Virus record (IMG/VR): IMGVR_UViG_3300037961_001128 | Coordinates: 1 to 30,691 of that record | From: a virus | DNA length: 30,691 bases | Strand: one strand, 5' to 3' | Part shown: positions 15,590 to 27,646 of the stretch, piece after piece | How the letters are laid out: each line of letters begins with the position of its first letter | How positions within the stretch are numbered: position 1 is the first letter of the stretch | The notes under the pieces: generated by a model | Told to the model about the DNA's origin: nothing | The model's input: only the letters and a program-made list of their open reading frames with translations | Databases searched by the model: none | Translations under genes and position numbers: made by a program

Positions 15590-15775
15590 ATGAATTACAA
15601 AACTAACAAAACTTACACTTGCAAAACCTACAACGACACACTAATAATCAAGGAATATACATATGGAAGATATGACAATCCAAATAAAATTACTGGAGGA
15701 TATGTAATATTTAATGGTAAGAGGGAGCACTGGAATGATGGTAAAATATACAACTTTATAGAGAATTGGTGTTAA
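15590..15775 (+). CDS. Small hypothetical protein, 61 residues
   Basis: First gene behind promoter P1. ATG 15590 is chosen because P1 lies 35 bases upstream; an upstream in-frame start (15515) would fall inside the promoter. The protein is rich in Tyr, Asn and Lys (YKTNKTYTCKTYNDTLIIKE, then GGYVIFNGKREHW) and looks like a small beta domain. No family recognised. Position directly after a strong host-type promoter suggests an early protein, possibly one acting on the host. Confidence 0.5.
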   Translation: MNYKTNKTYTCKTYNDTLIIKEYTYGRYDNPNKITGGYVIFNGKREHWNDGKIYNFIENWC

Positions 15776-15783
15776 GTAATACT

Positions 15784-16254
15784 ATGAATATATTTTACTT
15801 ACATAAAGACCCTGTACAAGCGCCTAGGTATTTATACAACAAACATTGTGTCAAAATGATACTAGAAACTGCTCAGATGTTATGTACAGCACACCACCAT
15901 TACGGACAGGGTGATAATGTTCCATACAAAGCAGCATATTACAACCACCCGAGTACAAAGTGGGCTAGAGAAAGCAAACAGAATTACAAATGGTTATATG
16001 ATTATTTCTTAAGTATTAACATAGAATACTTCACAAGATATAAAAAAATACACCAATCATATATCAAATGTAAAGACGCATTATCAAAACCACCAAAAGG
16101 CATACCGAACACTGGTTTTACACAACCTCCACAATGTATGCCAGACACACACAAAACGGAATGTAGTGTTGATGCGTATTGGAACTACTATATACATGAT
16201 AAAAACCATATCGCAAGAAATGACGAAATTAAATGGGAAAAACAACCACAATAA
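15784..16254 (+). CDS. Pyrimidine dimer DNA glycosylase-like protein
   Basis: 156 residues from ATG 15784. The opening MNIFYLHKDPVQAPRYLYNK followed by HCVKMILETAQMLCTAHHHY is a recurrent phage protein; I know it as related to the T4 endonuclease V/pyrimidine dimer glycosylase family (Pyr_excise). Conserved Trp/Tyr positions appear in STKWARESKQNYKWLYDYFL. If active it would excise UV damage, useful in sunlit surface water. The catalytic N-terminal Thr of T4 endonuclease V is not present after the Met, so activity is uncertain; it may be a divergent member with another role. Second gene of the P1 unit. Confidence 0.55.
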   Translation: MNIFYLHKDPVQAPRYLYNKHCVKMILETAQMLCTAHHHYGQGDNVPYKAAYYNHPSTKWARESKQNYKWLYDYFLSINIEYFTRYKKIHQSYIKCKDALSKPPKGIPNTGFTQPPQCMPDTHKTECSVDAYWNYYIHDKNHIARNDEIKWEKQPQ

Positions 16255-19452: not shown

Positions 19453-19694
19453 AAGTAAAAAGATTTAAAAAAGCAAACTATACAACATTAGACAAAAGTA
19501 AATTACATAAATTTCTCAAAGAAGAAGGTTTCAGCAGACAGGGTATGTCTATGGATTTTAATGTGACGCCTATGACTATTGATAGGTGGATGGATAATCC
19601 AGAGAAAATACAGATGCGTTATGTTAAAACGATATGTGAAGAAACAGGTGTTGACGCTAACTTTATATTCAGTTTGATTTATGAAAACTATTAA
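19449..19694 (+). CDS. XRE-like helix-turn-helix protein
   Basis: 81 residues. Helix-turn-helix phrase: KFLKEEGFSRQGMSMDFNVT, then MTIDRWMDNPEKIQMRYVKT, as in Cro/CI-type domains where a helper helix precedes a recognition helix. It may control early genes or act on replication, since it lies in the replication operon. With no integrase nearby I do not read it as a lysogeny repressor. Overlaps the next gene by 14 bases. Confidence 0.6.
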   Translation: MKVKRFKKANYTTLDKSKLHKFLKEEGFSRQGMSMDFNVTPMTIDRWMDNPEKIQMRYVKTICEETGVDANFIFSLIYENY

Positions 19695-20547
19695 TAGTAT
19701 AAGTGGAGGAAAGAGTTCCTGTTATATCGCTATAAATTATCCAGCTGATTACAATGTGTTTAGTTTAGTTAGAACAAATGACAAACTTTGTGAATATCCT
19801 GATAAAAAAGTAAGACAAATTGTATCTGATTTAATTGGGTGTGAATTTGTTGGAACAACTGAACAGGATAATATAATCCGTGTAATGTTAGATTTATCAG
19901 AAAAAGTAGATATACAATGGATAACAGGCAAACCATTTGAAGAAATAATAAATGGAGATTGGAATAGAGGAAAAAACGGAAGTCATTACCTACCAAATAT
20001 GATGGTCAGATATTGTACAACACACCTTAAAATGTATCCTATTTTTGAGTGGTGGAAAAAAGAAGTAAACGAAGTTTGTGAAATGAGGATAGGTTTTAGA
20101 AAAGGTGAAGAAAAACGACAAAAAAGAATGATAGAAAAGTTAAACGATAACGGAAACGAAGAAATAAAAATTGTAGTTGGAAAGCATGAAAATGGTAATA
20201 ATAAGTGGGGGGTAGTTGAGTGGAGGAAACCTACATTTCCTTTAATTGATAATAATGTTAGAATAAAAGATATCAATGATTATTGGTTAAAAAATAAAGA
20301 AATCAGATTTGCTAAAGGATATTACAATAATTGTGTAGGGTGTTTTCACAGAAACCCTTTGTTTCTAAATAAAATGGCTCAGGAGCACGCTAATAAAATG
20401 GAATGGTTTGCAAAACAGGAAGAAATGAATAAACCTAACACATTCAGAAAAGGAATAACATATAGAGAAATTATTAACTTTCAACCACAAACAGAATTAC
20501 AATTTGAAGATTTTAACGATTGTGATACTGGTTATTGTGGATTATAA
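19681..20547 (+). CDS. PP-loop ATPase, PAPS-reductase-like
   Basis: 288 residues. The N-terminus has SGGKSS (residues 8-13), a variant of the PP-loop SGGxDS that binds ATP. MVRYCTTHLKMYP (Cys112) matches the RxCTxxxKxxP phrase of the PAPS-reductase family. A C-terminal cluster, Cys218/Cys221 (NCVGCFHRN) and Cys281/Cys286, could hold an Fe-S cluster, as in DndC-like and tRNA-thiolating relatives. Family chemistry is adenylation, sulfur transfer or nucleotide-base modification. It overlaps the HTH gene and lies in the replication region. Whether it works with the TET/glycosyltransferase cassette 4 kb away is unknown. Confidence 0.7.
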   Translation: MKTINSISGGKSSCYIAINYPADYNVFSLVRTNDKLCEYPDKKVRQIVSDLIGCEFVGTTEQDNIIRVMLDLSEKVDIQWITGKPFEEIINGDWNRGKNGSHYLPNMMVRYCTTHLKMYPIFEWWKKEVNEVCEMRIGFRKGEEKRQKRMIEKLNDNGNEEIKIVVGKHENGNNKWGVVEWRKPTFPLIDNNVRIKDINDYWLKNKEIRFAKGYYNNCVGCFHRNPLFLNKMAQEHANKMEWFAKQEEMNKPNTFRKGITYREIINFQPQTELQFEDFNDCDTGYCGL

Positions 20548-23931: not shown

Positions 23932-24504
23932 ATGGATAAGACAGTAAAAATCAGTGAGTTAGTTCCTAACGAAAACAATCCTAGGATAATTAAGGATAGT
24001 AAATTTAAAAAACTAGTAGATAGTATTAAAGGTTTTCCAGAAATGTTATCACTAAGGCCAATTGTAGTTGATGAAGATATGGTTATACTAGGTGGTAATA
24101 TGAGATACAAAGCATCTTTGGAGGCTGGGTTAGATAAAATACCTATCAAAATAGCTAAAGGGTTAACAGAAGAACAGAAACAAGAATTTATCATAAAAGA
24201 TAATGTAGGGTTCGGTGAGTGGGATTGGGATATATTAGCTAATGAATGGGATAATGTTGAATTGAAAGACTGGGGAATAGATGTGTGGCAACCAGAAGAA
24301 GAAGTTGATTATTCTGTTCTAGATGATATTGACTTAGATGAGGAAATAACTGAAATGAAAAAAGGTGTTAAGAATGCTATCTGTATAGAGTTTGAATCAG
24401 GAGATTATGAACAGGCGGTTGAAACGATAGCAACATATAGAAAAGCAGGGGCGTATGTAGGTGGATTAATATTGAAACAATTATTAGAAAAAAAACCTGA
24501 ATGA
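23932..24504 (+). CDS. ParB-like nuclease-domain protein
   Basis: 190 residues. ISELVPNENNPRIIKDS opens a ParB/sulfiredoxin-type domain. VVDEDMVILGGNMRYKASLE carries its GGNxR box, and IKIAKGLTEEQKQEFIIKDN closes it. Such domains bind or cut DNA, or bind CTP. In phages they are often next to terminase or base-modification genes. Here the gene overlaps the glycosyltransferase by 4 bases, and the dioxygenase follows, so a common role in DNA modification or sequence targeting is plausible. The C-terminal 60 residues (acidic, then helical) are unassigned. Confidence 0.75.
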   Translation: MDKTVKISELVPNENNPRIIKDSKFKKLVDSIKGFPEMLSLRPIVVDEDMVILGGNMRYKASLEAGLDKIPIKIAKGLTEEQKQEFIIKDNVGFGEWDWDILANEWDNVELKDWGIDVWQPEEEVDYSVLDDIDLDEEITEMKKGVKNAICIEFESGDYEQAVETIATYRKAGAYVGGLILKQLLEKKPE

Positions 24505-25181
24505 AACACAATGTATATGTAATATCAGCAGGTAGGTATGACAAACTACCATTCAACAAACAACAAAAAGAGAAATACATTTTTTGTGTTAAAGATGGTG
24601 AGAAAGAATTATATGAATCACATGGTTGTAAGAATGTATATAACACTGGAAACTTGATGGATAGTAGAAACTTTGCTCTAGAACATGCGTTCAAAGAAAA
24701 AAAGATATGTGTTCAATTAAGTGATGATATCACAAAAGTAGTTTTGAATAAGAATTTTTATGAACCAAAAAAAATAGAAGTTCATGAAGCTATAGAGGAT
24801 ATAGTTAAAAAATTTAATAAGATAGAAAATGTAGATTTATTAGGGGTTCCACCGACAGATAATTATTTTTTTGCTGGTAAGTTAGTTGCAGAAAATAAAT
24901 TCTGTATTGGTGATATGTTATTTGTAAAACCATCAGAAGTAAGATTTGATACTCAGCTTACTCTTAAAGAAGATTATGACTTTACATTACAACACATATC
25001 TAGAAAGAAAGTTTTAAGGTATCAGAAATACTTATTTTCTTTTAAACATTATTCAAACAAAGGTGGAGCGGTTGATATAAGAAACAATGAAGAAGAACAG
25101 AAAAACATAAGAATACTGAAATCTAAGTGGAGGGACAAAGTAAGATTGAACCCTAAAAGAAAAAACGAAATATTGATATGA
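24501..25181 (+). CDS. TET-associated-type (GREB1-like) glycosyltransferase
   Basis: 226 residues. NVYVISAGRYDKLPF opens a GT-A-like fold. VYNTGNLMDSRNFALEHAFK precedes the acidic LSDDI motif (Asp75, Asp76), probably binding metal and sugar nucleotide. The C-terminal part has KEDYDFTLQHI (Glu157, Asp158) and LFSFKHYSNKGGAVDIRNN, then helical KNIRILKSKW. This matches the family described as TET/JBP-associated glycosyltransferases, also related to the GREB1 C-terminus. It would add a sugar to a hydroxymethyl pyrimidine in DNA. It lies between ParB-like and TET/JBP genes with 4-base overlaps on both sides, a strong functional link. Donor sugar unknown. Confidence 0.75.
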   Translation: MKHNVYVISAGRYDKLPFNKQQKEKYIFCVKDGEKELYESHGCKNVYNTGNLMDSRNFALEHAFKEKKICVQLSDDITKVVLNKNFYEPKKIEVHEAIEDIVKKFNKIENVDLLGVPPTDNYFFAGKLVAENKFCIGDMLFVKPSEVRFDTQLTLKEDYDFTLQHISRKKVLRYQKYLFSFKHYSNKGGAVDIRNNEEEQKNIRILKSKWRDKVRLNPKRKNEILI

Positions 25182-25993
25182 AAACTATAAAACTGAAACA
25201 GGTTGAACACAATGTAAAGGTAGGTAAGAACTGTCCATACATAGAACCGAACATCACAGAATCTTGTCTTTTAGAAGTTGATGGTGAGATTATAGGGTTT
25301 TATATTGAAGATGTATCAAAACACTCTAAGAAGTTATCTAAATTACTCTCAGTTGCAAATAAAGAGTTCAGAAGTGATAGGGTTCCAAAAACATATTTAG
25401 ATAGAATGAGCACGATAACAAATGAAGCGGACAAATCAAAATCACATGTTAGAGCAGAATCAAGGGTTTTAGGTTGTAGTCAGTGGAGTACGATAATTGG
25501 TTCTATACCACCAAACGCAGTAATGAGAAGGCCATACCCAAACAAATCACAAGTTCATAAAAATAAAGAAGCTCAGTTATACATCAAAGCAATGTTAGCA
25601 ACAGCCTACGAAAGTGAAAAGATAATACAAAAACTAACACCACATATACACGAAAAACAGGTTGAGGTATTAAGTGATGTTGATAAGAAATGGAAGTTTG
25701 GAAACCTTTGGACTGGGAGTATATCTAATTTTAATATTGCAGCAAGTTTTCATAGAGATACTGGAAACATAAAAGGAGCGGTAAATGTTATACTAACAAA
25801 AAGAAATAATAGTAAAGGAGGTTGTTTAAATGTACCTGATTATAATGTCACATTTGAACAGAAAGACAATAGTATGTTAGTATATCCAGCATGGAAAAAC
25901 ATTCATGGAGTCACACCAATTAAACAAACACACGAAACAGGGTATAGAAATAGTTTAATATTCTACCCGATTAAAGCATTCAAAGGAATATAA
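25178..25993 (+). CDS. TET/JBP-family 2-oxoglutarate/Fe(II) dioxygenase
   Basis: 271 residues. The iron triad is clear: HRD gives His192 and Asp194 (NIAASFHRDTGNIKG), and NIHGVTP gives His243. Arg257 in GYRNSLIFY is placed to bind 2-oxoglutarate. Between them lies KGGCLNVPDYNVTFEQKDNS, the GGxLxxPxY phrase of the TET/JBP group. The N-terminal 100 residues are a helical extension containing SQWSTIIGSIPP. The family oxidises the methyl group of 5-methylcytosine (TET) or thymine (JBP) in DNA. With the glycosyltransferase it would make a sugar-bearing base. It overlaps the small terminase by one base, so modification is tied to packaging. Confidence 0.85.
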   Translation: MKTIKLKQVEHNVKVGKNCPYIEPNITESCLLEVDGEIIGFYIEDVSKHSKKLSKLLSVANKEFRSDRVPKTYLDRMSTITNEADKSKSHVRAESRVLGCSQWSTIIGSIPPNAVMRRPYPNKSQVHKNKEAQLYIKAMLATAYESEKIIQKLTPHIHEKQVEVLSDVDKKWKFGNLWTGSISNFNIAASFHRDTGNIKGAVNVILTKRNNSKGGCLNVPDYNVTFEQKDNSMLVYPAWKNIHGVTPIKQTHETGYRNSLIFYPIKAFKGI

Positions 25994-26346
25994 TGGACAA
26001 AAGTAGGCACATAAAAAAGGAAGCAATGATAAAAGCTCTTGAAGCTAGTTTGGGAGTAGTCACGATAGCATGTGAAAAACTAAAACTACCAAGAAGCACA
26101 TTTTACAAATGGATTAATGAAGATGAAAAGTTTGCAAAAAAAGTAAAGGACATAGAAAATATTACACTGGACTTTGCAGAAAGTCAATTACATAATCAAA
26201 TCAAAAGTGGAAACACCTCAGCAACAATATTCTATCTAAAAACAAAAGGTAAGAAACGGGGTTATGTAGAAAAATCAGAACTTGATATCACCAGTGGTGA
26301 TGAACCTATTAAAATCAATATCAATATAGAAGGAGTTGAATATTAG
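25993..26346 (+). CDS. terS: Terminase small subunit
   Basis: 117 residues. N-terminal helix-turn-helix (SLGVVTIACEKLKLPRSTFY, then KWINEDEKF) followed by LDFAESQLHNQIKSGNTSAT and IFYLKTKGKKRGYVEK, a phrase typical of small terminase proteins. It recognises the packaging start on phage DNA and hands it to the large subunit. It starts in the TAATG of the dioxygenase gene and overlaps the large subunit by 11 bases. Confidence 0.8.
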   Translation: MDKSRHIKKEAMIKALEASLGVVTIACEKLKLPRSTFYKWINEDEKFAKKVKDIENITLDFAESQLHNQIKSGNTSATIFYLKTKGKKRGYVEKSELDITSGDEPIKININIEGVEY

Positions 26347-27646
26347 TCCTAAATTTACTAGAACACAAGAACAGGCAATTAAATACCTATTTGATAACAC
26401 AACTAACGACATATTGTTTGGAGGTGCAGCGGGTGGGGGAAAATCATATATTGGTTGTAGTTGGTTAATACTATTGTGTTTGAAATATCCAGGAACAAGA
26501 TATTTGATGGGTAGGAGTAAATTAGACAACTTAAAGAAAACAACTTTAAACACATTTTTTGAAGTGTGTGGTAAGTGGGGTATAACATCAGGAAAACATT
26601 TTAATTTCAACGCTGGGAGTAATATTATAAAATTCTATAATGATAGTGAAATATTACTAAAAGATTTGTTCCATTATCCAGCTGACCCGAATTATGATTC
26701 ATTAGGTTCTTTGGAAATAACTGGGGCGTTCATAGATGAAGCTAATCAGATAACTGAAAAAGCTAAGAACATAGTAAACTCTAGGATTAGATATAAATTA
26801 GACATATACGGGTTGATTCCTAAATTATTATTGACTTGCAACCCATCAAAGAACTGGACATATACACAATACTATAGGCCATCAAAAGAGAACAAATTAG
26901 AGCCACACAAAAAATTCATACAGAGTTTAGTTGATGACAACCCTTATATCAGTAAACATTATAAAGGACAATTAGATAAACTTGATGAAATTAGTAAACA
27001 AAGATTACTATACGGAAACTGGGAATATGATGCAAACCAAGATAACCTGATAAATTACAATTCTATTATAAACCTATTCACACAAACAGGGATAGAAGGT
27101 GAAAAATACATTACATGTGATGTTGCTCGTTTTGGGAACGATAAGACAGTTATTATGTATTGGGAAGGGTTGCATATTAAAAAGATTAAAACATTCCTTA
27201 AAAGTTCCGTCACACAGATTGTGGAAGAAATTAAAGAACAACAAAGAATAGAAGGTGTGAACCTTAAGAACATTATTGTTGATGAAGATGGTGTTGGTGG
27301 AGGTGTTGTTGATGTGTTAAGGTGTCAAGGGTTTTTGAATGGTGGGAAAGTTATAAACAAAGAAAACTACCAAAACTTAAAAACTCAATGCTACTATAAA
27401 TTAGCAGACATGGTAAACAAAGGTCAAGTAGGTATAACAACACAAGACATCACACAAAGAAACGAAATAATAGAAGAACTAGAACAGGTAAGAAGTAAGG
27501 ATATGGACAAAGATGGTAAATTAAAACTTATACCAAAAGAAAATATACGCTCTATTATTGGGCGTTCCCCTGATTATTCTGATGCCATAATGATGCGTAT
27601 GTATTATGAACTGAATCCAAACTTCGGTAAGTATTTTGTTCAGTAA
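26336..27646 (+). CDS. terL: Terminase large subunit (ATPase and nuclease)
   Basis: 436 residues from TTG at 26336; no ATG or GTG suits the start. Walker A is GGAAGGGKS (residues 29-37), Walker B FIDEAN (Asp134, Glu135). LLTCNPSKNW is the coupling motif. The nuclease has acidic residues at Asp262 (CDVARFG), Asp316 (VDEDGVG) and Asp416 (PDYSDA), matching RNase H-like terminase nucleases. It pumps DNA into the capsid and cuts it. Near the C-terminus it has a short tail (YYELNPNFGKYFVQ). The family (Terminase_6C-like) suggests headful or cos packaging; I cannot tell which. Confidence 0.92.
   Translation: MNISPKFTRTQEQAIKYLFDNTTNDILFGGAAGGGKSYIGCSWLILLCLKYPGTRYLMGRSKLDNLKKTTLNTFFEVCGKWGITSGKHFNFNAGSNIIKFYNDSEILLKDLFHYPADPNYDSLGSLEITGAFIDEANQITEKAKNIVNSRIRYKLDIYGLIPKLLLTCNPSKNWTYTQYYRPSKENKLEPHKKFIQSLVDDNPYISKHYKGQLDKLDEISKQRLLYGNWEYDANQDNLINYNSIINLFTQTGIEGEKYITCDVARFGNDKTVIMYWEGLHIKKIKTFLKSSVTQIVEEIKEQQRIEGVNLKNIIVDEDGVGGGVVDVLRCQGFLNGGKVINKENYQNLKTQCYYKLADMVNKGQVGITTQDITQRNEIIEELEQVRSKDMDKDGKLKLIPKENIRSIIGRSPDYSDAIMMRMYYELNPNFGKYFVQ

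Follow-up and report, generated by a model that had tools for sequence, protein, structure and literature searches.

The window analysed here is a stretch of 30,691 nucleotides of viral DNA, positions 1 to 30,691 of IMG/VR record IMGVR_UViG_3300037961_001128. Near its right end, a compact block of genes encodes a ParB-like protein, a glycosyltransferase and a TET/JBP dioxygenase, and the block runs on into the genes for the small (TerS) and then the large (TerL) terminase (Table 1). The middle gene is referred to below as the slot. Three open reading frames joined by four-base overlaps had been proposed in an initial annotation of this DNA, and an ATGA is indeed found at 24501 and at 25178. 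The single-base overlap between TET and TerS is likewise present, as TAATG at 25993.

Table 1. Genes and junctions of the block, in positions of the window
Feature	Position	Strand	Description
ParB-like gene	23932..24504	+	190 aa; ParB_N at residues 4-91, GGNMR box (by eye); C-terminal half conserved
Variable slot gene	24501..25181	+	226 aa; GT-A type glycosyltransferase of the TAGT/phrog_842 kind; SDD at ~74-76, KED at ~157
TET/JBP 2OG-Fe(II) dioxygenase	25178..25993	+	271 aa; from Pfam, alignments and fold search
Small terminase TerS	25993..26346	+	Translationally coupled to TET
Large terminase TerL	26336..27646	+	TTG start; Terminase_6N match just below cut-off
ATGA stop/start overlap, ParB/slot	24501..24504	+	Left edge of the swap
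ATGA stop/start overlap, slot/TET	25178..25181	+	Right edge of the swap

The dioxygenase is a member of the TET/JBP family, as had been claimed (Tet_JBP PF12851, E=9e-11, 41.7 bits against a cut-off of 34.9). Its proposed iron triad and arginine are invariant in 58 homologues (His192, Asp194, His243 and Arg257), and alignment shows the triad and the 2OG-binding arginine also kept in cyanophage and mycobacteriophage TET homologues. A Foldseek search with a predicted model of medium confidence (pLDDT 71) returned CcTet, human TET2 and NgTet1 as the best PDB matches (probability ~1.00, TM ~0.5). PDB sequence searches with the TET, slot glycosyltransferase or P-loop proteins or their profiles gave no significant match, and an NCBIfam search gave nothing useful. 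No J-binding domain was found in the TET protein; the Pfam signal beyond Tet_JBP is a sub-threshold match to Bcr-Abl_Oligo. The TET of the window matches phrog_6059 over its full length, and the label of that PHROG, queuine tRNA-ribosyltransferase, was considered and rejected. True DpdA proteins, such as FrenchFry gp2, belong to phrog_7068/887 and not to phrog_6059. The same label is carried by TET/JBP proteins of RefSeq phages (L088:776-1744, L086:19980-20765 and L097:810-1766), where it looks like a propagated misannotation.

The ParB-like domain was readily recovered with ParB_N (PF02195, E=1.6e-7, 31.7 bits against a cut-off of 26.3), and PHROG 498/620 match the ParB-like protein as well. 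Membership of the slot protein in the TAGT family, another early claim, passes by a narrow margin (PF20691, E=2.6e-6, 28.0 against a cut-off of 27.5 bits). Stronger support comes from PHROG 842, a beta-glucosyl-HMC-alpha-glucosyltransferase, which matches at 3e-12; the profile match to GT-A enzymes of the PDB is sub-threshold. The TAGT and TET/JBP family searches both passed, so the cassette would most naturally be expected to yield a glycosylated hydroxymethyl-pyrimidine. The slot protein of the window may thus cap a base with a sugar, and both this product and the identity of the sugar are predictions from protein family.

The DNA had been attributed to a small Bacteroidota phage, and both the host group and the genome size of about 31 kb are supported. 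TerL is 56% identical to that of Flavobacterium phage 11b and the portal protein 35% identical to those of Nonlabens phages; the host is probably Flavobacterium-like. A closely related contig, L001, leads from the last base of the window round to about base 71 by way of roughly 430 bases. Because L001 bridges the two ends, the window is read as a nearly complete, permuted genome of ~31 kb, and the absent ~430 bases are too short to hide a whole C5-methyltransferase gene. A search of genome contigs returned only one 3.2-kb MAG fragment, with no prophage or host link. Elsewhere in the window, a Pyr_excise gene (15766-16254) encodes a T4 endonuclease V-like pyrimidine dimer glycosylase, and a PAPS-reductase-like gene (phrog_424; 19681-20547) lies 3.4 kb upstream of ParB. 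A second DNA modification is possible in this phage, since the PAPS-reductase-like family also lies between two ParB genes in phages Heathcliff and Salgado.

The order ParB-slot-TET-TerS is conserved. A scan of IMG/VR gave 80 such loci, many of them on fragmentary contigs, whose TET proteins are 60-99% identical. Of the 77 loci in which TerS was found, 76 have it directly after TET, and ParB is present in every locus that has over 1.5 kb of sequence ahead of TET (60/60). Downstream of TerS, two quite different TerL families (clusters 5 and 10) follow the same block, which indicates transfer of the block from one packaging module to another.

What lies between ParB and TET varies from locus to locus. 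The initial annotation treated the sugar as a fixed feature, and this did not hold: the slot can be filled by many interchangeable genes, of which the glycosyltransferase gene is one. The DNA flanking the slot is ~97% identical between the window and L001 (95-98% up to base 24501 and 93-100% from base 25178), whereas the slot itself has ~50-60% identity in a forced global alignment and no BLASTN match. The collapse of identity between these two bases means that a single gene was exchanged, from its start codon to the next start codon. L001 carries a glycosyltransferase of another family than that of the window. Clustering at 40% identity gave ten occupant families adjoining TET: eight glycosyltransferase-like, one P-loop and one FkbM methyltransferase (PF05050), the last including cultured Prochlorococcus phages. 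The glycosyltransferase assignment is based on TAGT above cut-off in families F0, F1, F5, F7 and F11 and on phrog_842 in F3 and F8, with F4 counted from its 32-33% identity to F5 and F8. TAGT scores in the sister slot families F1, F5, F7, F9 and F11 range over 29-42 bits, and F3 fails the cut-off. On the TET tree, the ten families require 36 slot changes, against a minimum of 9, and 27 of 64 TET pairs at >=93% identity have different slot families. The pattern suggests diversifying pressure on the cap chemistry, probably exerted by host nucleases.

Replacement extends beyond glycosyltransferases. Between two contigs whose TETs are 98% identical (L045 and L051), a glycosyltransferase has given way to the P-loop protein. 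This protein of 154 aa aligns with Ploopntkinase3 (hhalign probability 96, E 4e-9) and lies below the Pfam cut-off for that family; a fold search with its model found weak likeness to nucleotide and shikimate kinases. It is remotely like the 5-hmU DNA kinases. No ADDT was found in the contigs with this kinase-like slot. It is plausible that all slot occupants are decorators of a hydroxyl group. Two tandem transferase genes precede TET in a few contigs (L046:8599-10004, L079:2-1209 and L024:3-1393), possibly producing two-sugar caps. In the Arthrobacter phages Klevey and Altadena (L091:4860-6190 and L095:4558-5906), TET is followed by a glycosyltransferase, which in Klevey falls just below the TAGT cut-off, and then by a PIG-L-type GlcNAc deacetylase. 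This arrangement suggests a GlcNAc-type sugar that is later deacetylated on the DNA.

The pyrimidine oxidized by TET could be 5-methylcytosine or thymine. The phage TETs assayed by Burke in 2021 reportedly act on 5-methylcytosine. Asn197 of the window's TET, likewise invariant in 58 homologues, lies at the position of the cytosine-contacting Asn1387 of TET2; the active site therefore offers no argument for thymine. The same cassette might act on 5-methylcytosine made by the host or by an unrecognised phage methyltransferase and yield glycosylated hydroxymethylcytosine. The name of phrog_842, which refers to an HMC glucosyltransferase, fits this reading, as do known phage TET systems, which combine a C5-methyltransferase, TET and glycosyltransferases on cytosine; the characterised route begins with the methyltransferase (PMC12730594). 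However, the C5-cytosine methyltransferase family (PF00145) is absent in 90 of the 93 records searched, including the window and complete cultured phages (12 cultured phages in all: MED4-117, P-HS2, Nigel and nine others), although the same search matched 10 of 14 control genomes. The usual 5-methylcytosine route would therefore lack its first enzyme. The exceptions are contigs L011, L014 and L016 (L082-L085), where a PF00145 gene about 2 to 5 kb upstream of TET agrees with the cytosine reading. A host enzyme could supply the methyl group, but the phage would then be bound to the methylated sites of each host.

Genes of relatives also bear on the choice of base. A thymidylate-synthase-like hydroxymethylase would make hydroxymethyl nucleotides; no thymidylate synthase homologue (PF00303) was found in any of 15 records, window included. 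ADDT and Ploopntkinase3 are hallmarks of thymidine hypermodification and act on hydroxymethyluracil in DNA. Neither ADDT nor a 5-hmU kinase was found in the window. Among actinophages, the ParB-TET pair is accompanied by both enzymes in CaiB and Tonitrus, by ADDT in LilMcDreamy and Phelemich, and by Ploopntkinase3 in Ottawa. MO526 has TET and ADDT, with no ParB detected next to TET. The authors of the Tonitrus genome annotated its ParB-TET operon in 2025 as a thymidine hypermodification system (PMC11955845). The missing C5-methyltransferase, together with the thymidine-hypermodification enzymes of relatives, favours thymine over 5-methylcytosine. We consider thymine the probable substrate and 5-methylcytosine a rather unlikely one.

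The ParB-like gene had been suggested to provide sequence targeting. Comparison supports this gene as a conserved partner of TET, which is as far as the comparative support for a targeting role extends. The pair occurs in Prochlorococcus, mycobacterial, Gordonia, Rhodococcus, Arthrobacter and Microbacterium phages. ParB precedes TET in Nigel and KayaCho, two phages in which no decorator gene accompanies the pair, and Nigel-related ParBs are found before other enzymes: before DpdA and QueC/D/E in Saguaro and FrenchFry (the Saguaro and Nigel ParBs are 72% identical over 150 aa), and before PAPS-reductase-like genes, together with a second ParB, in Heathcliff and Salgado. Related ParBs that precede TET, DpdA or PAPS-reductase-like genes are always near the terminase (L088, L097, L100, L101, L103 and L104; first 8 kb). 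In bacterial Dpd systems, the ParB-like ATPase DpdB is used with DpdA (PMC12839542), and the authors of the CRB2 study linked ParB and DpdA in a similar way (PMC6392294). ParB may be a general adaptor through which base modifiers are loaded onto DNA.

ParB could instead be a nuclease or transcription regulator that is co-inherited with the terminase region and has no part in modification, which would be compatible with the proposed chemistry of TET and the slot. Genes with a ParB_N domain are often found close to phage terminases or fused to methyltransferases, Flavobacterium phage 11b has a similar TerL and no annotated ParB there, and ParBc is carried by CmoX contigs with its role beside modifiers given as unknown (PMC12783734). 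Such a bystander role does not readily explain the invariable linkage to TET, the correlation between ParB and TET distances (0.76, against 0.06 between TET and TerL), or the recurrence of ParB beside several unrelated base modifiers. We regard it as doubtful.

A further reading places the substrate outside phage DNA, in RNA, the host surface or a regulatory molecule, with ParB a separate partition or regulatory protein. Family models cannot give a substrate, polysaccharides are also substrates of FkbM and GT-A enzymes, and ParB-like proteins have other roles. Nevertheless, the strict coupling of ParB and TET in unrelated phages, the position of the cassette directly before the terminase, and best fold matches to DNA-oxidizing TETs all point to DNA, as does the adjacency of related ParBs to DpdA, a DNA-base-exchange enzyme (PMC6392294). 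This reading is accordingly improbable.

Several known systems resemble the cassette in part. The phage C5-methyltransferase-TET-glycosyltransferase system (Burke et al. 2021) also uses TET/JBP and TAGT-type enzymes on DNA pyrimidines; the present family differs in that the C5-methyltransferase is nearly always absent, ParB is constant, a single slot is swappable and the operon ends in TerS. The actinophage operons of Tonitrus and CaiB (PMC11955845) have ParB and TET adjacent or nearly so, decorators close by, no C5-methyltransferase, and a position before the terminase. Here, in contrast, ADDT is missing and the decorating enzyme is a glycosyltransferase encoded between ParB and TET. Kinetoplastid base J is made by the same two steps predicted here, hydroxylation of thymine by JBP1/2 and addition of a sugar by the J glucosyltransferase; the present system is viral, has no detected J-binding domain, and its product is a prediction. 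Dpd 7-deazaguanine systems (DpdA with the ParB-like DpdB) similarly pair a ParB-superfamily protein with a DNA base modifier, and in cluster B mycobacteriophages ParB-DpdA-QueCDE lies directly before the terminase region. Those systems exchange the base, whereas the window's cassette is predicted to oxidize it in place. The Prochlorococcus phages MED4-117, MED4-184 and P-HS2 have the same order, ParB-slot-TET-TerS-TerL, with a TET 42% identical to that of the window; their slot holds an FkbM methyltransferase instead of a glycosyltransferase.

In summary, the block is best explained, and with reasonable likelihood, as a cassette for hypermodification of bases after replication. In this model, the ParB-like protein would bind phage DNA and load or target TET. 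TET would act on a pyrimidine already incorporated into DNA, most probably thymine, and hydroxylate its 5-methyl group, giving 5-hydroxymethyluracil. The slot enzyme would cap the new hydroxyl: in the window, a TAGT-type transferase would add a sugar to form a base-J-like glycosylated hydroxymethyluracil, and in other phages the cap would perhaps be a phosphate or O-methyl group. The capped DNA would then be packaged. By exchanging the slot, close relatives would confront host restriction with DNA of differing chemistry, and evasion of host nucleases would be the presumed benefit. A broader proposal is that phage ParBs serve as a general adaptor for TET, DpdA and PAPS-reductase-like enzymes before packaging, and that the cassette is a viral base J whose cap is exchanged like an antigen. 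We offer this as a tentative idea, somewhat less likely to be right than wrong.

Phage TET, TAGT and ParB neighbourhoods are already known in part. In the literature searched, which did not include key earlier studies, we found no description of the exchangeable slot and its replacement by kinase-like or FkbM genes, of the near-total absence of C5-methyltransferase from the ParB-slot-TET family, or of the parallel association of ParB with TET, DpdA and PAPS-reductase-like genes at one locus. To our knowledge, kinetoplastids and related organisms are the only ones known to form glycosylated hydroxymethyluracil by oxidation of DNA. Should thymine be the substrate, viruses would also make it in this way, with no methyltransferase needed. 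The recurrent partnership of ParB makes its role beside DNA modifiers (PMC12783734) addressable in cultured phages. The slot, in turn, would be a ready library of DNA-decorating enzymes for the labelling of hydroxymethylated bases.
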